The notes under the pieces were generated by a model, which did not search any database, was not told where the DNA came from, and saw only the letters and a list, made by a program, of their open reading frames with translations. Both the position numbers and the translations under genes were made by a program. From the IMG/VR virus record IMGVR_UViG_3300012964_000020, positions 1 through 40,858 of that record: a DNA stretch of 40,858 nucleotides. One strand, written 5' to 3'. Numbering within the stretch: position 1 is the first letter of the stretch; each line of letters begins with the position of its first letter. Positions 3-40,858 of the stretch are shown here, piece by piece. The stretch comes from a virus.

Positions 3-2756
3 TTTAAGACACTTGTTCCCAGGCTGGTCGCTGCTGGCGCTGACGCATATTTCGGCTGTGCCTCCTACACAAACGCTTCGGGCCGTACCAAGGCCGACGT
101 GCACTACGTTAAATCATTCTGGATCGACCTCGATTGCGGGGTTGATGCCCCCTACAAGACACAGGAAGAAGGCCTGGACGCTCTGCGCGCCTTCTGCAGG
201 AAGACTCAGCTACCCAAGCCCTGGATTGTGAACTCCGGACGCGGCTGGCACGTCTACTGGCCGCTGGCCACCCCTATACTGATGCCCCTATGGCGCACCT
301 ATGCCGCCCGATTGGTGGAGCTCAGCGCGACTTCAGGGCTCAAGATCAAGGACCCCGGCTGCAGCACGGACGCCACGCGTATTCTGCGTATCCCCGGCAC
401 GTTGAACTTCAAAGACCCTGAGAATCCCTTGGAGGTCGGAGTCGTAACCACTGGTGGTATCAACGACTGGGAGCTGTTGCGCGATCGTATACAAGCCGCT
501 TGTGGCGAGGTAGGGATTAATGGATTCCACGAGAAACCCCAAGTTCCAGTGACCCGCGGCCCGGTAGATGCGCTCACCGCCGCGCTGGCCGGCAACACCA
601 CCAGTAACTTCAAAAAGATACTAATGAGAAGTCTGGGTGGGAATGGTTGCGCGCATATCGCTTACGCGGCCCAGCACCCAGCCGAGACAACAGAACCTTT
701 GTGGCGCTCAGTGCTCTCGACCGCTAAGTTCTGTGAAGATAACGACAAGGCGATCCATGCTATATCGAAGGGGCACCCCGAGTATTCGATCGAAGCCACT
801 GAAAAGAAAGCCGCTGAGATCAAAGGCCCCTATAACTGCCAGACTTATGCAGAACAGGCTGGCAGCGAACGCTGCGCTGACTGTCCGCACCGCGGCAAGA
901 TAACGAATCCGCTGCAACTAGGCAAGGTCGGAGTACCAGCAACGGAACCGATCGTGGTAGCGCGCAGCGTGGAGCAGGCCGGCCTGCCTGTCGAAGGGTT
1001 GACTGCTGCGGAGATACTCCCGGAGCTGCCTTTCCCATATTTCCGCGGGATCAACGGGGGTATTTACGCTCAAGGGCCTAAAGGGCCTGATGGGGAGTCC
1101 GGCGAGCCGGTCTTGATCTATGAATACAACCTGGATGTGGTGCGGTTGTTAAAAGACCCTGAGAAGGGGGACACGCTGGTGATCCACCTGGCACTGCCGC
1201 AGGATGGGCTCCGCGAGATTCTGATGCCATTGGCCGATGCACAATCAATCGAACGTATGAAAGATAAACTTGGGTTCTATGGCGTAGCCGCCGGCAAAGA
1301 CCAGATGAACCGGATCGGGATATATCTCACTCGGATGGTGAAGCAGATGCAGGCTGAAAAGCCGACAGAAATTGCCCGGACACAGATGGGTTGGACAGAA
1401 GACAGGAAGGGGATCGTGTGGGGGCGCACGATGTTTACTAAGGCGGGGTTGCAGTACTGCCCGCCCGCAGCGAAAGCCGCTACTGCGGCTAATATGTTGA
1501 AGACTAGCGGAACACTGGAGGCATGGGAGTCCGTAGCTTCCCGTTATGCTGCGCCAGGGTCAGAGCTGTATGCATGCTGCCTGCTGGCGGCCTTCGGCTC
1601 AATGCTGAATCACTACACCTATGAAGATCCTGTGTGGGTGCATCTGGTCAGTTCACATTCAGGCACCGGCAAGACCACGCTGACACGGGTGATGAATAGT
1701 ATCTGGGGCGACCCGACGGCGATGGCTATGACAGTGACAGATACAGTAAACGCAGTAGAGAAACGCCGGGTGGTGTTCAACAGCGTCGCAGTAACACAGG
1801 ACGAGATCACCAACTTGCCTGCAGATAAGTTAAGCCAATTGGCTTACGCACAATCCCAAGGGCGCGAGAAGCTTCGCCTGACCAGTGGATCAACAGAGAT
1901 AGTCAACACAGACCGCCGCAATAATACATTTTTCTCAACCGGTAACCGCTACATCAGTGACGTGTTGAGTTCATTCAAAACTAACGCTGCAGGCGAGTTT
2001 GCCCGGCTGGTTGAAGTATCATTCGCCCCGCTGCAGAATGTTGTGGCTGGGGAGGACCATTTTGGTATTGTGATGAAAAATTACGGGCATGCAGGTCCGA
2101 TATTCGCCAAGTGGTTGGTGATGCATGAAGAGTCGCTGCAAGCGCGTGTAGATGCCGAGCGTGTACGGTTCTCGAAGCAGTTCAATAGTGTGAGCAGTGA
2201 GCGCAACTGGGTGGGGCTGACCTCTACGATGTTTGCAGCGCTGAGTATCTTGCAGCGTGAATTAGGCTTGCTACGCGCTTACGATGGCGAACGACTTTAT
2301 GCTGTATGGCTGGAACATATGAAAGCGATCAGGAAGAGCGCCGCGGAGCATGTAGTCTCACATGAAAATCTGCTTGGTGATTTCATCAACGAGAACTATG
2401 CAAATATCATTATCCCAGATGCGAACGTAGCCCACGCAGCTGCGGTTAGCCCAGCCACTGCATCTTTGTATGGCCGCAAGACTGAACGCGAAGCCCGCAA
2501 CAAGCTGGTCATCCGCTGGGAGAAAGATACACAGCGGTTGTATATTGCGCAACACGAACTAAAGACTTACTGCATCAAGCGTTCGCATTCATATGTTGAT
2601 TTCCTGGCGCACTGCATGCATGATAAGCAATTCGTCGGTATGGAGAGTAAACGTATGGGTAGCAATACTGGGGTAATTACGGGGCCGGTTAAAGCGCTGG
2701 TGTTCAAAGTCACCGGTGAAGGGTTAGGGGCGATATTAGAGGAGGTCGGGGTATGA
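3..2756 (+). CDS. Primase-helicase fusion, 5' end outside window
   Basis: Replicative enzyme expected to make primers and unwind phage DNA. The frame is open from base 3 with no stop before it, so the N-terminus lies outside the window; the GTG at 99 is only an internal start-like codon. Numbering from base 3, WIDLDCG (residues 40-46) supplies the D-x-D metal site and SGRGWHVYW (78-86) the nucleotide-binding His motif of archaeo-eukaryotic (AEP) phage primases. A Cys/His cluster CADCPHRGK lies near residue 290. The C-terminal half has a Walker A, SGTGKTT (near 552-558), an acidic pair in TQDEITNLP and a STGNR motif, as in DUF927/SF3-like helicase domains. The stop overlaps the next start (ATGA). 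The primase assignment is strong; the helicase class is inferred. Confidence 0.85.
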   Translation, partial: FKTLVPRLVAAGADAYFGCASYTNASGRTKADVHYVKSFWIDLDCGVDAPYKTQEEGLDALRAFCRKTQLPKPWIVNSGRGWHVYWPLATPILMPLWRTYAARLVELSATSGLKIKDPGCSTDATRILRIPGTLNFKDPENPLEVGVVTTGGINDWELLRDRIQAACGEVGINGFHEKPQVPVTRGPVDALTAALAGNTTSNFKKILMRSLGGNGCAHIAYAAQHPAETTEPLWRSVLSTAKFCEDNDKAIHAISKGHPEYSIEATEKKAAEIKGPYNCQTYAEQAGSERCADCPHRGKITNPLQLGKVGVPATEPIVVARSVEQAGLPVEGLTAAEILPELPFPYFRGINGGIYAQGPKGPDGESGEPVLIYEYNLDVVRLLKDPEKGDTLVIHLALPQDGLREILMPLADAQSIERMKDKLGFYGVAAGKDQMNRIGIYLTRMVKQMQAEKPTEIARTQMGWTEDRKGIVWGRTMFTKAGLQYCPPAAKAATAANMLKTSGTLEAWESVASRYAAPGSELYACCLLAAFGSMLNHYTYEDPVWVHLVSSHSGTGKTTLTRVMNSIWGDPTAMAMTVTDTVNAVEKRRVVFNSVAVTQDEITNLPADKLSQLAYAQSQGREKLRLTSGSTEIVNTDRRNNTFFSTGNRYISDVLSSFKTNAAGEFARLVEVSFAPLQNVVAGEDHFGIVMKNYGHAGPIFAKWLVMHEESLQARVDAERVRFSKQFNSVSSERNWVGLTSTMFAALSILQRELGLLRAYDGERLYAVWLEHMKAIRKSAAEHVVSHENLLGDFINENYANIIIPDANVAHAAAVSPATASLYGRKTEREARNKLVIRWEKDTQRLYIAQHELKTYCIKRSHSYVDFLAHCMHDKQFVGMESKRMGSNTGVITGPVKALVFKVTGEGLGAILEEVGV

Positions 2757-2968
2757 GCCCGCGTGAAGCTGCAGCTATCTGGCTGATGAAGTTTGGAACC
2801 GAGCGGGTCCTCATAAAAGAGGCGCTCTCTGTTGGTGTTGATACGTTAGTCTCATTGATAGGTGCGGATTATGTTGCGCAGTGTCGGGGTACGAGCAGTG
2901 AGTTACTTTGTTATTTGACCGAAGTAGGTCTAGCCGCAATAAAAGGAGACGATCATGAATCATCTTAA
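2753..2968 (+). CDS. Small paralogue-family protein, copy A
   Basis: 71-residue protein of unknown function, first of eight related proteins in this window (also at 3199, 37385, 38932 broken, 39137, 39505, 39719, 40048). Shared layout: an N-terminal helix of the type (E)-x-x-x-x-W-L-M-x-F-G-T, a middle that differs completely between copies, and a C-terminus of the type L-T/N-x-x-G-L-A-x-h-K-G. Here the ends read SPREAAAIWLMKFGTE and LTEVGLAAIKGDDHE. The tail resembles the wing and last helix of a winged-helix fold, which is inference only. The start overlaps the primase stop (ATGA) behind GGAGG. Its own last codons AAAGGAGACGATCATGA contain the ribosome site and start of the next gene. Confidence 0.8.
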   Translation: MSPREAAAIWLMKFGTERVLIKEALSVGVDTLVSLIGADYVAQCRGTSSELLCYLTEVGLAAIKGDDHESS

Positions 2969-3212
2969 CGTAGTTAAATTCCCTGAAGACGATGCGAACA
3001 ACGTCGTTGCTGGATTGCGTAATTTAGCTGATAATATCGAGGCCGGTCAGTTCGGTGATGCGCACAACTTGGCATGGGTTATTGATAAGGGTGATGGGGC
3101 CATAAGCGTCGGTTTGCTGGGGAGAAGTGGTTCACCGGGGGCGGAGGCGCATCTGTTGTTAGCGCTAGGATTGCGGAACCTTGAAGGCGCAAGAGTTTAT
3201 GAGCCCACGTGA
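2955..3212 (+). CDS. Conserved small phage protein, function unknown
   Basis: 85 residues, starting inside the end of the preceding gene; its SD (AAAGGAG) is coded by that gene's C-terminus. The pattern LRNLADNIEAGQFGDAHNLA followed by a hydrophobic strand with KGDGAISVGLLG and a C-terminal LLALGLRNLEG helix looks like a small alpha/beta protein often found beside phage replication genes. No catalytic motif, signal or membrane segment is visible. The last 14 bases overlap the start of copy B of the paralogue family, suggesting coupled translation. I recognise the type but know no function for it. Confidence 0.75.
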   Translation: MNHLNVVKFPEDDANNVVAGLRNLADNIEAGQFGDAHNLAWVIDKGDGAISVGLLGRSGSPGAEAHLLLALGLRNLEGARVYEPT

Positions 3213-3429
3213 ATTAGCTGTAAGTTGGCTCATGAATTTTGGGATGGATGAGGTAGGTCCACACGCAATTGCACAGTGGCGTCACACTGTCGCCACTTCT
3301 GAAAGCCCTTACCCTTGGACGACTATCAGCCTATCCGGGTATTTGACTCCAACTGAGCTTCCATTAAAAGCATATACGTGGCGCCTGAACGAGATGGGCC
3401 TAGCAGCAATAAAAGAACCATGCCAGTAA
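3199..3429 (+). CDS. Small paralogue-family protein, copy B
   Basis: 76-residue member of the family described at 2753. ATG 3199 is chosen over the upstream TTG 3181 because MSPRELAVSWLMNFG then aligns with copy A's MSPREAAAIWLMKFG. The C-terminus WRLNEMGLAAIKEPCQ keeps the LNExGLAxIK core but has lost the KGEDH tail: the coding DNA there reads AAAAGAACC, so the embedded ribosome site seen in other copies is degraded even though the next ATG (3420) still falls inside it. The middle (about residues 20-60) shares nothing obvious with copy A. Weak SD; probably translated by coupling to the overlapping upstream gene. Confidence 0.75.
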   Translation: MSPRELAVSWLMNFGMDEVGPHAIAQWRHTVATSESPYPWTTISLSGYLTPTELPLKAYTWRLNEMGLAAIKEPCQ

Positions 3430-34546: not shown

Positions 34547-34570
34547 GTACGCGTAGGCGCCTACGCGCAC
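34547..34570. repeat. 24-bp palindrome copy 1 (GTACGCGTAG-4-CTACGCGCAC)
   Basis: Arms of 10 bases with one mismatch around a 4-base centre, ending one base before the -35 of the strong promoter at 34571. It is one of five such elements, all in the + strand early region (also 35437, 35796, 37956, 38773). The position suggests an operator; as RNA from the weak upstream promoter it would form a hairpin. Confidence 0.7.
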
Positions 34571-36757: not shown

Positions 36758-36977
36758 GTACGACGTACTTCAGCATATGTACGGCGCACTTCACCCCTTT
36801 GTACGACGTACAAACCCAAATGTACGACGCACTTCGACGATGTACGGCGTACTTCACCCTTTGTACGGCGCACTTCGATGATGTACGGCATACTTCACTA
36901 CATATACGGCGTACATTTGGGTTTGTATGTCGTACTTTTATTTTTATGTACGCCGCACATTGACATGTACCTCGTAC
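36758..36977. repeat. Iteron array: 11 near-palindromes GTACGNCGTAC, about 21-bp period
   Basis: Eleven 11-base units start at 36758, 36779, 36801, 36822, 36842, 36863, 36883, 36904, 36925, 36948 and 36967. Units read GTACG-N-CGTAC or close variants (CGCAC, CATAC; the eighth begins ATACG, the ninth GTATG, the last GTACC). Start-to-start distances are 19-23, mean 20.9, two turns of B-DNA, so all sites face the same side. Most of the first seven are followed by TTC. The last two flank and enter the promoter at 36960. The next gene codes for an HTH protein. Operator array, origin iterons or partition site are all possible. Confidence 0.9.
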
Positions 36978-36988
36978 TTCCATATAAT
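36960..36988 (+). promoter_or_regulatory. Consensus promoter overlapped by iterons
   Basis: Perfect TTGACA and TATAAT at 17 bases. Unit 11 of the array occupies the spacer (36967-36977) and unit 10 ends just before the -35, so a bound protein would exclude RNA polymerase. It reads into the HTH gene at 37014. Confidence 0.85.
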
Positions 36989-37013: not shown

Positions 37014-37388
37014 ATGACAAATCAGCCCTATGACATCCTCGCCCACTATGATGATGCCCCCACAAACCCGGCGCCGGTGACCGATGCCGACCGCGAGTTT
37101 TATACCAAATATGGTATGACCCGTGCGGAGTACACCGCTTGGGGGGATCAGCACACCAAACAGATTACCCCGCTGGAACCCGTTGAGGCCCCGCCCAAGA
37201 AACCACGCGCACAGCACCGCCGATTGGCGCCCCACTTGGCCGACCAAGTTCTGGTAGACTTCAGTATGGGTGACACCCCGACAGAGATCGCCGCGCGATA
37301 CAACACTACACCTGGCGCCGTGCGTAACCGCCTGCGGCGGGCGGGCATGCTGGACAAGACGTGTCCTCACTGCGGGGGAAAATTATGA
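37014..37388 (+). CDS. HTH DNA-binding protein downstream of iteron array (124 aa)
   Basis: AAGGAG stands 6 bases before the ATG. The N-terminal half is acidic and Pro-rich (DILAHYDDAPTNPAPV; FYTKYGMTRAEYTAW), then a basic hinge KKPRAQHRR. Residues 77-112 form a helix-turn-helix: ADQVLVDFSMGDTPTEIAAR then YNTTPGAVRNRLRRAGM, a sigma-region-4/GcrA-like tri-helical pattern in which N98-x-x-P-G-A-V-R-N-R-L would be the recognition helix. A CPHCG near the end gives half a zinc site or a dimer contact. The 11 sites overlapping its promoter make autoregulation likely. It could equally be an origin or partition protein. The stop overlaps copy C (ATGA). Confidence 0.75.
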   Translation: MTNQPYDILAHYDDAPTNPAPVTDADREFYTKYGMTRAEYTAWGDQHTKQITPLEPVEAPPKKPRAQHRRLAPHLADQVLVDFSMGDTPTEIAARYNTTPGAVRNRLRRAGMLDKTCPHCGGKL

Positions 37389-37618
37389 CTGACGATGAGA
37401 TCAAACAGATGCTAGTCCTCTGGTTGCTGCACCATGGGACGGAGCCGGTATTGTTGACCCGTAGCAACCCCGCCGCGCGCTGGTATTTTGATGATGTATC
37501 GACTAGTTGGCTATACAGCCATATTAAAGCTTACGTAACGCGCATGAATGACAGTAGACTGTTTCTTAACGAAGCAGGCCTTGCCCGTATTAACGGAGTT
37601 AATCATGACCAGGATTGA
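37385..37618 (+). CDS. Small paralogue-family protein, copy C
   Basis: 77-residue member of the family described at 2753, directly coupled to the HTH gene by ATGA. The ends read MTDDEIKQMLVLWLLHHGTE and FLNEAGLARINGVNHDQD; the middle contains ARWYFDD and WLYSHIKAY. The Trp-Tyr in the middle (R-W-Y-F) recurs at a similar place in copies E (AWYHD), F (QWYIS) and G (LWYVR), so that spot is semi-conserved. The end AACGGAGTTAATCATGA carries the next gene's ribosome site. Function unknown. Confidence 0.8.
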   Translation: MTDDEIKQMLVLWLLHHGTEPVLLTRSNPAARWYFDDVSTSWLYSHIKAYVTRMNDSRLFLNEAGLARINGVNHDQD

Positions 37619-37898
37619 TTACGCATACGGCTGGACACCTGCCATGGAGAAGCGGATCGAGAAACGCATCGCCAATGCGAAAGCTGCGAAGTTGAAACGC
37701 AAGCGCGAACGCGCAAAGAAAGCCAAGACCATCCGGGAAGCGGTTGAGCTCGCCCTGGCTATTGAACGTGAACGGACACTTGTTCGCAAACAGCGCGCCA
37801 AAGAGCGTAAACAACAACGTGCCGACGAACGAGCGCGGGAGCGTGCAGTGCGCGAAGCCGCTGAATTACTCTTAATAAAACGAAAGTACGAAACTTGA
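37605..37898 (+). CDS. Highly basic helical protein (97 aa)
   Basis: ATG 37605 uses the GGAG inside copy C's end; the frame is open upstream to 37548 but only as a shadow of copy C. After YAYGWTPAMEKRIEKRIANA nearly every residue is Lys, Arg, Glu or Ala (KLKRKRERAKKAKTIREAVE; RKQRAKERKQQRADERARER), a single long charged helix. Such proteins often bind nucleic acid non-specifically. There is no family I can name. The promoter at 37895 overlaps its stop, so the next transcript starts at its end. Confidence 0.65.
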   Translation: MTRIDYAYGWTPAMEKRIEKRIANAKAAKLKRKRERAKKAKTIREAVELALAIERERTLVRKQRAKERKQQRADERARERAVREAAELLLIKRKYET

Positions 37899-37923
37899 CA
37901 ATGCTGGAAACAAAGAGTATAAT
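37895..37923 (+). promoter_or_regulatory. Consensus promoter for distal accessory genes
   Basis: TTGACA, exactly 17 bases, TATAAT. It starts inside the stop region of the basic protein gene. The leader of about 70 bases contains palindrome copy 4 and then AAAGGAG. Probably drives the genes from 37999 to the window end. Confidence 0.85.
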
Positions 37924-37955
37924 AGACTCATAAATCAGAGGTTTAGCAACAAAAC

Positions 37956-37979
37956 GAACGCGTAGAACGCTACGCATAC
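37956..37979. repeat. 24-bp palindrome copy 4 (two mismatches)
   Basis: GAACGCGTAG-AACG-CTACGCATAC, in the 5' leader between the consensus promoter and the ribosome site. Here it would be transcribed and form a hairpin just before the SD, or act as a downstream operator. Confidence 0.65.
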
Positions 37980-37998
37980 TTAATTAAAGGAGATGATC

Positions 37999-38205
37999 AT
38001 GTGGGAAGATATGGTTTTATATTGGGCTTGGCGAGGAGATGAACCGGCGAGCTACCCGCCACCCACCCGCAAACGGATCGTATACACCGATTTAGGATTT
38101 AATGACATGCATATGGCCTCGCATGTATATGACGATCCGATGGGCGGCACGCCAGACACTATCGGCCGGGTGCTAAAAGGTGCTATGCTTACTTATTGGA
38201 GGTAA
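37999..38205 (+). CDS. Small accessory protein (68 aa)
   Basis: ATG 37999 rather than 37993, because AAAGGAG ends directly at 37992 and gives proper spacing only to the second ATG. MWEDMVLYWAWRGDEPASYP, then TRKRIVYTDLGFNDMHMASH and TIGRVLKGAMLTYWR. Rich in Trp, Tyr and Met; no membrane segment or known motif. First gene behind the 37895 promoter. Its start context AAAGGAGATGATCATG is the same ribosome-site cassette that ends the paralogue genes. Function unknown. Confidence 0.65.
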   Translation: MWEDMVLYWAWRGDEPASYPPPTRKRIVYTDLGFNDMHMASHVYDDPMGGTPDTIGRVLKGAMLTYWR

Positions 38206-38207
38206 TC

Positions 38208-38366
38208 ATGCAGACATACACATGCATTGTGATCATTAAGCAAGAAGCCGACACCGCCGAAGACGCGGCCAGGCAAATTCAGTCTTGCATACCGAGCGTC
38301 ACCGAAGTGAAGGTGCACTCATTCGGCCCGGATCAGGTAGTGATGCTGGAAGAGAAAAAGAGGTAA
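38208..38366 (+). CDS. Small alpha/beta protein (52 aa)
   Basis: QTYTCIVIIKQEADTAEDAA, RQIQSCIPSVTEVKVHSFGP, then DQVVMLEEKKR. The strand-helix-strand order (CIVII, EDAARQIQSC, VTEVKVHSF) is that of half a ferredoxin-like fold. GGAGG at the correct distance lies before the ATG, two bases after the previous stop. Too short for family assignment, but codon use and the ribosome site support it. Confidence 0.65.
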   Translation: MQTYTCIVIIKQEADTAEDAARQIQSCIPSVTEVKVHSFGPDQVVMLEEKKR

Positions 38367-38368
38367 TC

Positions 38369-38671
38369 ATGAGAGAGATCGAACGCAAAATGCTGAAGGC
38401 GATTGAAGACAAGCGTGACTGGTCTTTGTCCAACACCCGAGTTGAGTATCAACACGAACCCGCACATAAGGGTAACTTCGTTGGCACACATGCCAGGGTG
38501 TACCTGCACGGCCACCACATAGCAAACTTCTGGCAGCACGGCGGGGTTGAGGTAAACACGGATACACTGCGCCGCTGGCCTACGGTAACAACAAAGAGTC
38601 GTCTGCGCGCGCTCGGCGCAAAGTTGACGCAGAAGAACTGGCAACTCTACCTGAACGGGGAGGCGATATGA
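38369..38671 (+). CDS. Conserved small phage protein with LHG-IA and TKSRL motifs (100 aa)
   Basis: The start follows the previous stop by two bases, behind AGAGGTAATC. SLSNTRVEYQHEPAHKGNF, then THARVYLHGHHIANFWQHGG and VTTKSRLRALGAKL. The blocks V-x-L-H-G-x-x-I-A and T-x-K-S-R-L-x-A-L are those of a small protein widespread in phages of Proteobacteria, with a strand-rich core and a C-terminal helix. Function is not known to me. It belongs to the accessory run, and its stop overlaps the next start (ATGA). Confidence 0.7.
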   Translation: MREIERKMLKAIEDKRDWSLSNTRVEYQHEPAHKGNFVGTHARVYLHGHHIANFWQHGGVEVNTDTLRRWPTVTTKSRLRALGAKLTQKNWQLYLNGEAI

Positions 38672-38823
38672 CACAGGCCATCGGGTTAATAGTATTGTTC
38701 ATCGGCTTCGTGATGCTGTTCGTTGCAGCTATCGTGCTGGGCACGGTTGTCGCCGTGATGTTTCTTATCAACGTATGCGTAGCGTTCTACGAGTACAGAA
38801 AACCTGAAGGAGAATCAGAATGA
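38668..38823 (+). CDS. Small membrane protein (51 aa)
   Basis: MTQAIGLIVLFIGFVMLFVA continues AIVLGTVVAVMFLINVCVAF, a hydrophobic stretch long enough for one to two transmembrane helices, then a short polar tail YEYRKPEGESE. GGAGG precedes the ATG. The last codons contain AAGGAG for the next gene, which starts at the overlapping ATGA. Palindrome copy 5 (38773-38796) lies inside its coding sequence. Small early membrane proteins of phages often alter the host envelope or block superinfection; unproven here. Confidence 0.65.
   Translation: MTQAIGLIVLFIGFVMLFVAAIVLGTVVAVMFLINVCVAFYEYRKPEGESE
38773..38796. repeat. 24-bp palindrome copy 5, inside a gene
   Basis: GTATGCGTAG-CGTT-CTACGAGTAC, two mismatches between arms. 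It codes VCVAFYEY in the membrane protein, so it is the only copy in coding sequence and may be a chance or degenerate copy. Confidence 0.45.
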
Positions 38824-38948
38824 CAACCGCGATCATTATCTATCTCTACTGCCTCGGCCTCTCCGCAGGTCTGGTCGTTGCCTTAGCCCTTGGGGCGGTG
38901 TTCTCAAAAGAGATTCGTCAAGGAGTACGAGATGAGTGGAACCGATGA
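38820..38948 (+). CDS. Small membrane protein (42 aa)
   Basis: MTTAIIIYLYCLGLSAGLVV followed by ALALGAVFSKEIRQGVRDEW. One transmembrane helix and a basic cytoplasmic-type tail. AAGGAG 6 bases before the ATG, with an ATGA overlap to the previous membrane gene, so the two are translated together. The next gene begins inside its 3' end (ATG 38932). Function unknown. Confidence 0.6.
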   Translation: MTTAIIIYLYCLGLSAGLVVALALGAVFSKEIRQGVRDEWNR

Positions 38949-39144
38949 AGCAATAAGGCAGGTACTGGCAGTACTCGCTATGAGTGAGGATATGTCTTTC
39001 GGAGACTTTATACAGCTCAAACGCTAATTGGGCGCTTATAGAGTTAGTCTTTTTGGCGCTGGGTATATCTGCTCCGGTACATCTAACAACATAGCCATAA
39101 CTCCGAAAGGCTTAGCCTTCCTGAAAGGAGAAGATCATGACTGA
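38932..39144 (+). pseudogene. Paralogue-family copy D, interrupted by in-frame TAA
   Basis: The frame codes SGTDEAIRQVLAVLAM and SFGDFIQLKR, then TAA at 39025-39027, then continues in the same frame with LGAYRVSLFGAGYICSG, and ends ITPKGLAFLKGEDHD. Both conserved ends of the family are present, and the closest relative is copy H (EAIRQILAVMVM; HIRQRVG), where Gln occupies the position of the stop: CAA to TAA is one transition. Other genes here use TAA as a normal stop, so it is not recoded genome-wide. Either a recent inactivation, or a 31-residue truncated product. The intact end still carries AAAGGAG and ATG for copy E. Confidence 0.75.
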
Positions 39145-39382
39145 CGCCGAGATTCGCCTGTTTCTAGCTGGTTGGTTGATGCACTTCGGCACCGATTCAG
39201 TTACGTGGCCTACTCGAAGCGCGTGTGCTTGGTACCATGATGAAATCCCCCATGACTGGGTAGCCTTGGATCCCCCACTACTTCAGTATTTCAACTACGA
39301 CGACGAGGATGGCCCAGCTCAGTTGAATGAGAAAGGGCTAGCCTTCCTGAAAGGAGACACTGATGGACAACCCAATGACTGA
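39137..39382 (+). CDS. Small paralogue-family protein, copy E
   Basis: 81-residue member of the family described at 2753. MTDAEIRLFLAGWLMHFGTD at the start and AQLNEKGLAFLKGDTDG near the end; the middle is acidic and aromatic (AWYHDEIPHDW; LQYFNYDDEDG). The ribosome site is embedded in the end of copy D. Unlike others it runs 7 residues past the KGD motif because the downstream start lies in another frame (ATG 39363), so the fusion of signal and coding end is preserved but shifted. Function unknown. Confidence 0.8.
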   Translation: MTDAEIRLFLAGWLMHFGTDSVTWPTRSACAWYHDEIPHDWVALDPPLLQYFNYDDEDGPAQLNEKGLAFLKGDTDGQPND

Positions 39383-39539
39383 GTATAGGGCGCCAGATGA
39401 AGGTAAGATGTACCCCATTTACCTGGCGGTGCGTGATACGCGTACTGGTGCGCTGTGGTATCTGAACCCAATCAATATTGAGGCGTGCTTCGCACGAGCA
39501 AACGATGAACAAAGACGACCTCCGCCTGTTCCTAGCTGA
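39363..39539 (+). CDS. Small protein between copies E and F (58 aa)
   Basis: Starts at an ATG behind AAAGGAG inside the end of copy E. TEYRAPDEGKMYPIYLAVRD then TRTGALWYLNPINIEACFAR, ending in a basic, Pro-rich tail (RRPPPVPS). The Y-P-I-Y-L-A-V-R-D-T-R-T-G-A-L-W-Y order suggests two beta strands. The tail is read through the start of copy F in another frame, so the last ~11 residues may be unconstrained. Unrelated to the paralogue family. Function unknown. Confidence 0.6.
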   Translation: MDNPMTEYRAPDEGKMYPIYLAVRDTRTGALWYLNPINIEACFARANDEQRRPPPVPS

Positions 39540-39726
39540 GTGGCTGATGCACTGTGGTGCAGATTGGTGCTGTCCTTTCTATCCGCCAGTACACCAATGG
39601 TATATATCAAGTGCTTATCACTGTAAGACGCTTCCGAACTACTTCGACTCGCGCGAAAAGGATAGGCTAGAGTTTAAACTTACGCCAGAAGCATTAGCCT
39701 TCCTGAAAGGAGAAGACCATGGATGA
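39505..39726 (+). CDS. Small paralogue-family protein, copy F
   Basis: 73-residue member of the family described at 2753. ATG 39505 gives NKDDLRLFLAEWLMHCGAD in register with copies E and G; the longer TTG form from 39478 does not. The end is KLTPEALAFLKGEDHG. The middle has two adjacent Cys (WCCPFYPP) and QWYIS. No clear SD; starts within the 58-residue gene, so re-initiation after that gene is likely. The last codons AAAGGAGAAGACCATGGATGA hold the start of copy G. Confidence 0.8.
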   Translation: MNKDDLRLFLAEWLMHCGADWCCPFYPPVHQWYISSAYHCKTLPNYFDSREKDRLEFKLTPEALAFLKGEDHG

Positions 39727-39955
39727 CGACGAGATGCGCCAGTTTTTGGCAACGTGGCTGATGTACTTTGGGACAGAGGCAGGTGATCCATATGATGCTA
39801 GTACGCCCGGCGGGTTGTGGTATGTGCGTGGTAGTGGGGTGTCTTTAGCTGATGCACGGACAGAGAACTTTTTAGTCCGCTGTGGTATAGCCTCACTTGA
39901 GTACCGCCTAACAGATAAAGGCTTGGCGTTTATCAAAGGAGAGGATCATGGATGA
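39719..39955 (+). CDS. Small paralogue-family protein, copy G
   Basis: 78-residue member of the family described at 2753. MDDDEMRQFLATWLMYFGTE and YRLTDKGLAFIKGEDHG are near-consensus ends. The middle (DPYDASTPGGLWYVRGSG, then SLADARTENFLVRCG) again differs from all other copies except the aromatic pair L-W-Y. Ribosome site AAAGGAG is coded by copy F. Its own end AAAGGAGAGGATCATGGATGA launches the 39-residue gene. Function unknown. Confidence 0.8.
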   Translation: MDDDEMRQFLATWLMYFGTEAGDPYDASTPGGLWYVRGSGVSLADARTENFLVRCGIASLEYRLTDKGLAFIKGEDHG

Positions 39956-40067
39956 AGTCGAAGAGTCATTTTATTTTTACACCAGCCACGACGAGGACGG
40001 CAAACCTGAGATCGTCATACCAGACGAGTTACTTGCGGGAGATTTCAATGACGACGAAGAGTTCTGA
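39948..40067 (+). CDS. Very acidic small protein (39 aa)
   Basis: MDEVEESFYFYTSHDEDGKP and EIVIPDELLAGDFNDDEEF. About 14 of 39 residues are Asp or Glu, so it could mimic DNA charge. The ribosome site AAAGGAG and start lie in the end of copy G; the GGGAG for copy H lies within this gene. Acidic DNA-mimic proteins are used by phages against host defence, but with this length the idea is only a suggestion. Confidence 0.6.
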   Translation: MDEVEESFYFYTSHDEDGKPEIVIPDELLAGDFNDDEEF

Positions 40068-40308
40068 AGACGAAGCGATCAGGCAGATACTTGCCGTGAT
40101 GGTAATGCAGGGTGGTCAGTTCGGTCCTGGTGAGTTGTATCACATACGACAGAGAGTGGGTATTATGCCCCAGGTGAATTTATTGCTGTACGGGTCTATA
40201 GAGTTCGTCGACACCGGCGAAGTCTCTTGGCGCATCACCGAGAAAGGTTTAGCCTTCCTACGCGAAGGAACAACTACCAAACTAGAGACTTGGCATGGAG
40301 CTACTTAA
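40048..40308 (+). CDS. Small paralogue-family protein, copy H
   Basis: 86-residue, most divergent member of the family described at 2753. SSEDEAIRQILAVMVMQGG has lost the W-L-M but keeps the helix, and RITEKGLAFLREG keeps the end with REG instead of KGE, followed by a new tail TTTKLETWHGAT. That tail is written by the CATGGAGCTACTTAA sequence which starts the Gly-rich gene and is repeated at 40600. Closest relative is broken copy D. GGGAG 8 bases upstream. Function unknown. Confidence 0.75.
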   Translation: MTTKSSEDEAIRQILAVMVMQGGQFGPGELYHIRQRVGIMPQVNLLLYGSIEFVDTGEVSWRITEKGLAFLREGTTTKLETWHGAT

Positions 40309-40615
40309 ATTAAACGGCAGCGGCTACGGCTACGGCGACGGCTACGGCGGCGGCAGCGGCTACGGCGGCGGCTACGGCAACGGCAGCGGCAACGGCTACG
40401 GCCGCGGCAACGGCAACGGCATCGGCAGCGGCTACGGCTACGGCAGCGGCATCGGCAGCGGCATCGGCAGCGGCATCGGCGACGGCAACGGCAACGGCAG
40501 CGGCAGCGGCTACGGCGACGGCACACCTGAGCAGTTGTTCATGCGGATGGTGTTTAATGCAGCAATTTATAAGGATATGAGGATAACCTGTAAGGTGCAG
40601 CATGGAGCTACTTAA
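40295..40615 (+). CDS. Gly-X repeat protein, copy 1 (106 aa)
   Basis: MELLKLNG, then about 35 dipeptides Gly-X where X is Tyr, Ser, Asp, Asn, Ile, Gly or Arg, then a unique C-terminus TPEQLFMRMVFNAAIYKDMR, ITCKVQHGAT. Within the repeat every Gly is GGC and every X codon ends in C, so the DNA is (GGC-NNC)n. The SD is weak. Starts inside copy H. The conserved non-repeat ends, shared with copy 2, support a real gene. A flexible or self-assembling region is likely; the function is unknown. Antisense frames through the repeat are open only because of its composition. Confidence 0.65.
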   Translation: MELLKLNGSGYGYGDGYGGGSGYGGGYGNGSGNGYGRGNGNGIGSGYGYGSGIGSGIGSGIGDGNGNGSGSGYGDGTPEQLFMRMVFNAAIYKDMRITCKVQHGAT

Positions 40616-40858
40616 ATTAAACGGCTACGGCGGCGACTACGGCGGCGACTACGGCGACGGCCGCGGCAGCGGCAGCGGCTACGGCAGCGGCAGCGGCTAC
40701 GGCATCGGCGACGGCAGCGGCAGCGGCAGCGGCTACGGCATCGGCTACGGCGACGGTAGCGGCGACGGCAGCGGCAGCGGCTACGGCTACGGCAGCGGCG
40801 ACGGCACACCTGAGCAGTTGTTCATGCGGATGGTGTTTAATGCAGCAATTTATAAGGA
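40602..40858 (+). CDS. Gly-X repeat protein, copy 2, 3' end outside window
   Basis: Tandem duplicate of the previous gene, same start MELLKLNG and, after a different series of about 31 Gly-X units (more Asp and Gly at the start, YGGDYGGDYGDG), the same unique segment TPEQLFMRMVFNAAIYK, cut by the window end. AAGGTG lies before the ATG, inside the end of copy 1. One GGT codon is the only departure from GGC. The two copies have near-identical flanks but different repeat order, so the repeat changes faster than the rest. Confidence 0.65.
   Translation, partial: MELLKLNGYGGDYGGDYGDGRGSGSGYGSGSGYGIGDGSGSGSGYGIGYGDGSGDGSGSGYGYGSGDGTPEQLFMRMVFNAAIYK

Follow-up and report, generated by a model that had tools for sequence, protein, structure and literature searches.

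We describe a family of short phage proteins encoded at eight loci (seven intact genes and one broken copy, here m1 to m8) in IMG/VR virus record IMGVR_UViG_3300012964_000020, which was analysed over its full length of 40,858 bases (the window). The copies carry similar ends around strongly diverged middles and are predicted to adopt a winged-helix fold. The reading that we favour, and to which we would grant a little less than an even chance, is of a lineage-specific family made early in infection, by translationally coupled genes, on one winged-helix scaffold, the exposed face of which diversifies against changing partners that probably belong to the host; we infer the early timing from promoters, strand and neighbouring genes. 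A previous sequence-only reading of this DNA had reported a paralogue family with such ends and middles at the same places, had guessed a winged-helix fold and had seen no known family, and all three of these claims are supported by the profile searches, structure predictions and database searches set out below.

All members lie on the plus strand. Directly after the DUF927 primase gene stands m1 (2753..2968, 71 residues; leave-one-out E 2.5e-7), which overlaps the next open reading frame (ORF; 2955), followed by m2 (3199..3429, 76 residues, E 1.3e-4), which overlaps the start (3420) of a conserved 68-residue ORF. The others are m3 (37385..37618, 77 residues, E 1.1e-4), overlapping the next start codon at 37605, m4 (38932..39144), m5 (39137..39382, 81 residues, E 1.9e-10), which is very acidic with a net charge of -11, m6 (39505..39726, 73 residues, E 5.6e-7), m7 (39719..39955, 78 residues, E 2e-15) and m8 (40048..40308, 86 residues, E 5.5e-6). 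Every intact copy is thus recovered by a profile of the others (E 1.3e-4 to 2e-15, leave-one-out, about 20,000 ORFs), and chance resemblance of the copies is rejected on these values. Six genes had been counted between 37385 and 40308; five are intact, but the sixth, m4, is interrupted by an in-frame TAA (39025-39027) after 31 codons, its two halves matching the family profile at 2.6e-6 and 2.2e-13 with m4 itself among the members of that profile. An alternative genetic code is an unlikely explanation of this TAA.

Mean pairwise identity is 45% in a 13-residue N-terminal block and 53% in an 11-residue C-terminal block, and 21% in the middle, where the alignment Z reaches about 3 or more in just 3 of 21 pairs. 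The similarity of the N-termini is real, although the single motif first described resolves into two forms, W-L-[ML]-x-x-G in the copies at 2753, 3199, 37385, 39137, 39505 and 39719 and A-I-R-Q-[IV]-L-A-V in those at 38932 and 40048. Likewise, the W-Y attributed to all middles is found at 37385, 39137, 39505 and 39719, but is W-R at 3199, L-Y at 40048 and absent in either form at 2753. At the C-terminus, many identical residues of the segment [LI]-[TN]-x-x-G-L-A-x-[LI] (LTEKGLA) are encoded by synonymously different codons, and this block is conserved at the protein level; in the N-terminal 20 codons of m3, m5, m6 and m7, codons differ at 3-6 of 7-13 identical residues. Because identical residues so often use different codons, the ends appear to be held mainly by selection on the protein, and gene conversion as the sole cause of their conservation is rejected, although some C-terminal tracts are nearly identical at the DNA level.

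The last residues of the shared C-terminus call for a different explanation from that given to LTEKGLA. The K-G-[ED] of m1, m4, m5, m6 and m7 is encoded by AAA-GGA-G, which is the Shine-Dalgarno sequence of the overlapping next gene, and the ATG of that gene falls in the codons that follow, where it often encodes part of D-H (AAAGGAG...ATG, five copies). At 39105..39139 (plus strand), for example, the end of m4, KGLAFLKGEDH, contains both the Shine-Dalgarno sequence and the start codon of m5, and the ends of m1, m5, m6 and m7 are built likewise. The earlier claim of a shared C-terminus accordingly stands for the LTEKGLA part, but not for K-G-[ED], which in these five copies is the ribosome-binding site of the next gene. 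Two copies in the relative G004 (below) end in the same way, IRGEDHANG and IKGDNHG. Shared C-termini in tightly packed phage operons should therefore be regarded with caution, since they may be ribosome-binding sites read as protein.

Members gave no match above curated or significance thresholds in Pfam, PHROGs or NCBIfam, and direct searches of IMG/VR, GTDB genomes and GenBank phages with single members and member alignments found no relatives, so that related phages were reached only via the primase, the 68-residue ORF and the terminase. The primase and adjacent 68-residue ORF led to five relatives. In three (L002, L003 and L090) the primase adjoins the 68-residue ORF, whereas the record has m1, an 85-residue ORF and m2 in between; from this gene order the interval appears to be a variable slot, empty in those three. 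At leave-one-out E of 13 and 3, respectively, the ORFs in the primase-side slot of L004 (9902-10174) and L089 (9714-10010) are not counted as members, winged-helix-like though they look. One relative is G004 (IMGVR_UViG_3300036987_000008, 66.5 kb), whose late genes are collinear with those of the record, mostly at 50-93% protein identity, but in which ORFs of the record to the right of 34.3 kb (34.3-40.8 kb) have no blastp match. In G004 the record-only profile finds one copy at E 5e-5; conversely, m8 is recovered by a G004-only profile at 1.1e-9, and profile-profile comparison of the two gives a probability of 96%. The G004 cluster (L096 1286-4656) holds up to seven members: two clear, four probable (L096 1286, 3766, 4178 and 4381; E 0.05-0.16, all within one 3.4-kb stretch) and one possible (L096:3996-4181, E 140 once left out of the profile).

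Phages reached through the terminase carry single copies. Those in L186, L187, L188 and L190 are 73-74 residues long (E 3e-4 to 2e-3, record-only profile), and that in L195 (E 0.04, or 4e-5 with a wider profile) runs to 136 residues, through fusion with, or reading on into, a second segment; a search of most of what else the records behind L187 and L195 contain gave no further copies. Counting copies in related phages, a check proposed with the sequence-only reading, thus gave up to seven in G004 and one each in five others, and on present sequences the family appears to be limited to a small phage group with one to eight copies per phage. Part of the early region probably lies beyond the ends of the record, and the copy numbers given for it are therefore lower bounds. 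We found neither the family, its limits within this phage group, its one-to-eight expansion nor its pattern of a frame plus a variable face in the libraries and literature searched, and a literature search for phage winged-helix paralogue expansions returned nothing matching; the fold itself, and fast-evolving small early phage genes as a general theme, are already known.

AlphaFold2 models of two divergent copies, computed from 13-15 aligned members, both gave a winged helix. For m8 (mean predicted local distance difference test score, pLDDT, 82; predicted template modelling score 0.69), helices span residues 3-20, 27-37, 42-47 and 65-73 and strands 51-55 and 59-63; the m7 model (mean pLDDT 89.9, predicted template modelling score 0.77) has the same order of elements. 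Both predicted models thus show the order H1-H2-H3-strand-strand-H4, with H2-H3 in a tri-helical core. In Foldseek the nearest structures to the m8 model were F93 of Sulfolobus turreted icosahedral virus (STIV), pNOB8 AspA and MarR proteins (probability about 0.99, E 0.02-0.1), and the m7 model gave weaker matches, many of them winged helices. A combined 15-member profile searched against PDB sequences likewise retrieved mainly winged helices (AspA, eS10, PhiH1 repressor-like, PadR and HxlR; best E 0.007). The combined alignment (A7) behind the m8 model and the PDB profile included the L089 row that was later not counted as a member. In the predicted fold the N-terminal motif would correspond to H1, LTEKGLA to the end of the wing plus H4, and the variable middle to H2-H3 plus the start of the wing. 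On these models H1, the last wing strand and H4 are predicted to form the core and H2-H3 with the wing start to be exposed, and the fixed ends probably also form a dimer frame.

AspA of the Sulfolobus plasmid pNOB8 (PDB 4rs8, 5k1y, 5k5q) is likewise a small stand-alone winged helix; of all PDB entries it was matched best by the sequence profile (E 0.007), and it also ranked near the top in Foldseek. As in the present family, its gene overlaps the one that follows (PMC5120986). AspA acts at the centromere as a dimer that recognises a 23-bp palindrome and spreads, in concert with ParB and ParA (PMC5120986), whereas the present family is multi-copy and variable and, in the record, acidic. Operator arrays exist here, though none is linked to a particular copy, and no ParA or ParB was noticed, no search having been aimed at them. 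F93 (PDB 2co5), the best Foldseek match of m8 (E 0.021, probability 1.00, template modelling score about 0.5), is also a small viral winged helix; it shares about 20% identity with m8, comes from an archaeal virus, and is not known to belong to a tandem diversified set. MarR, PadR and HxlR regulators and Pfam HTH_45 have in common with the family the fold and a y-x-L-T-e-k-G wing end, but in sequence they match it weakly (HTH_45 misses its cut-off at E 0.15; PadR 0.35; HxlR 1.4). At their length the family proteins leave no room for the extra helices through which MarR proteins dimerise.

Non-synonymous (dN) and synonymous (dS) substitutions were counted among L186, L187, L188 and L190, which are close enough for this purpose. 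Comparison of L190 with L186 gives 68% identity for the winged-helix protein (dN 0.18, dN/dS 0.57), the least conserved in its operon, most neighbours being 93-100% identical with dN of 0.000-0.036, and the ATPase, DUF3150-like, DUF2201 and terminase genes 97-100% identical with dN/dS of 0.01-0.11. Nearest in rate are another 74-residue ORF (dN 0.14, dN/dS 0.52) and an 86-residue ORF (dN 0.08, dN/dS 0.35). Within the family gene, change is concentrated in the middle (dN 0.31, dN/dS 0.6-0.8) relative to the ends (dN 0.06-0.07, dN/dS 0.26). Of the arms-race selection originally proposed, the fast, middle-focused change is supported (68% against 93-100% identity; dN 0.31 against 0.06-0.07), but dN/dS is not clearly above 1 and the arms race itself is conjectural, as are the toxin/immunity and anti-defence roles put forward with it. 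These rates could instead reflect mostly neutral birth and death, in which a dispensable small gene duplicates and decays and the variability of the middle denotes tolerance rather than conflict. One of the eight copies is indeed broken, dN/dS of the middle approaches 1 without clearly exceeding it, three relatives have nothing in the slot beside the primase, and at 0.5 the dN/dS of the other 74-residue ORF in that operon is much the same. Nevertheless, seven of eight copies are intact, their ends are constrained (synonymous codon differences at identical residues; dN/dS 0.26), and in the relatives with one copy the gene is retained within a stable operon; we regard the neutral account as improbable.

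Under the favoured reading of a diversifying scaffold, the copies would be produced together early in infection, each with its own face for binding a protein of the host (or of a rival phage) and blocking or redirecting it; duplication would supply new copies, which would diversify in the middle and be lost once their target is absent. Host-interaction proteins that diversify against changing partners would fit what is seen: small size, co-translation and early timing, a conserved frame beside a variable face predicted to be exposed, a copy number that differs between phages, and one dead copy. Protein partners are preferred over DNA because all copies in the record are acidic (net charge -2 to -11). 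Several points weigh against this reading. Fold-search E-values are marginal (best 0.021 with Foldseek and 0.007 with the combined profile), and record-only and G004-only profiles retrieved no winged helix from the PDB at E <1, so that the sequence evidence for the fold rests on the combined profile. Values of dN/dS are below 1 save where counts are tiny, those above 1 reflecting a handful of changes. In addition, dS of the gene is 0.32-0.37 against 0.08-0.20 in most early neighbours, and is 0.39-0.54 in the middle against 0.21-0.26 in the ends; exchange with divergent alleles may therefore explain part of the pattern. DNA is the most frequent ligand of winged helices, and no likeness to a known anti-defence protein was found, the defence models of PADLOC giving one weak match to one member (E 0.013).

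A more specific proposal, which we consider unlikely, is that the family is a binder repertoire in which one winged-helix frame serves folding and homo- or heterodimerisation and presents interchangeable, fast-evolving H2-H3 faces from one early operon. If this were so, one infection would deliver several different host-factor inhibitors, and new ones could arise by duplicating a copy and exchanging its middle.

DNA-binding transcription regulators form a serious rival, since basic copies do occur in G004 and the early regions of both phages contain palindromes of their own; we lean against this explanation while considering it a real possibility. Here the fixed ends would dimerise, the variable H2-H3 would read DNA, and paralogues would have drifted to other early-region operators or host promoters. 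The nearest structures (STIV F93, AspA, MarR) are DNA-binding winged helices, and the G004 cluster copies range in net charge from -4 to +6, with isoelectric points of 10.2 and 9.5 among the basic ones. Each phage has its own dispersed early-region palindrome, different in sequence, with some copies inside or beside the family cluster: GTACGCGTAG-N5-TACGCGTRC at 34547, 35437, 35796, 37956 and 38773 in the record, and GGACAGCAGT-N4-ACTGCTGTCC in G004 (eight exact copies, 58502-66251 and 1758; L098, L096). These recall the inverted repeats of extended start-associated sequences in cluster K mycobacteriophages (PMC3203893). Against a regulatory role, however, stand the acidity of every copy in the record, the lack of a common basic or polar recognition pattern in the predicted H3 segments, and the fact that eight copies are not needed for two operator types.

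The second of these operator types has, moreover, a better candidate regulator. At 36758-36977 lie 11 copies of the palindrome GTACGNCGTAC with 0-1 mismatch, spaced by 19-23 bp (about two helical turns), which from its sequence looks like an operator or iteron array; all matches outside it have two mismatches. The last copy sits inside a perfect sigma-70-type promoter (36960..36988, plus strand; TTGACA, 17 nt, TATAAT) directly before ORF 37014, the first of the early operon, and this 124-residue ORF is helix-turn-helix-like with a C-terminal CPHC motif. A second perfect promoter of the same type (37895..37923, plus strand; TTGACA, 17 nt, TATAAT) lies upstream of m4 to m8.

Genes for an AAA+ ATPase, a DUF3150-like protein and a DUF2201 metallopeptidase-VWA protein accompany the family gene or cluster in G004, L190 and L195, in a conserved cassette of the early region of the phage group (L190 3106-6381; L195 1-3726; L096 4663-5517; L098 12357-16239), although in some of the phages DUF3150 and the ATPase are matched only weakly. 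In L190 the single-copy gene and the DUF2201 gene overlap; in L195 the family gene is flanked by the DUF3150-like gene and a DUF2201-like gene; and in G004 the DUF3150-like gene directly follows the family cluster. Such positions might be expected of an adaptor or substrate selector, different copies of which deliver different clients to the cassette. Jumbo phages have a pair of this kind, an AAA+ ATPase and a VWA-metallopeptidase, which has been proposed to act as a chaperone system during virion assembly (PMC7824862). Yet the cassette is nearly invariant (97-100% identical) whilst the family gene changes fast, the primase-side copies lie far from it, and it was not found in the record, which ends before its expected place; we hold this explanation to be very improbable.

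Small genes without relatives or known targets are abundant in phage early regions. The computation described here ties orphans of different phages to one predicted scaffold and separates a conserved frame from a changing face. The early small-gene sets of archaeal viruses, many of whose members have been proposed as anti-defence genes, are also early, fast-evolving and mostly without homologues, include anti-CRISPR paralogues within one genome, and in some cases have helix-turn-helix domains (PMC11065993). In those viruses a common promoter motif is repeated, one copy for each of many genes, and some of the genes have been tested (PMC11065993), whereas the present family is united by translational coupling within an operon and by a single predicted scaffold, and its roles are proposed from sequence. 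As the related group offers both a single-copy orthologue and expanded sets, it provides a clean test of whether different copies bind different host proteins or DNA sites.

The remainder of the record is organised as follows. A truncated DUF927 primase gene (99-2756) occupies the left end; the minus-strand late genes include those for the large terminase, head protein, virion protein and DNA ejection protein; and the plus-strand early region extends from about 34.4 kb to the right end. No end repeats are reported, and Rfam and tRNA scans of the whole record were empty. Glycine-rich (GYG/GDG) low-complexity ORFs occur in tandem at 40295-40858 of the record and 1853-2572 of L195, with a short conserved tail (...TPEQLFMRMVFNAAIYKD and ...APDSDDWFIQTIYRAKLIKGE, respectively), and the record stops within the second copy of these repeats. 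Three small genes in tandem at 684-1701 of L002 form another family, unrelated to the present one, with the common C-terminus AYFGWELMNGADLEALKxDPYWKYMED and differing N-terminal parts; it has one relative in L089 (2254-2640, E 1e-13). Finally, a DNA polymerase A-like gene of L099 (750-3521) has an apparent intein-like insert with an overlapping HNH-like ORF, as judged from the translation only.

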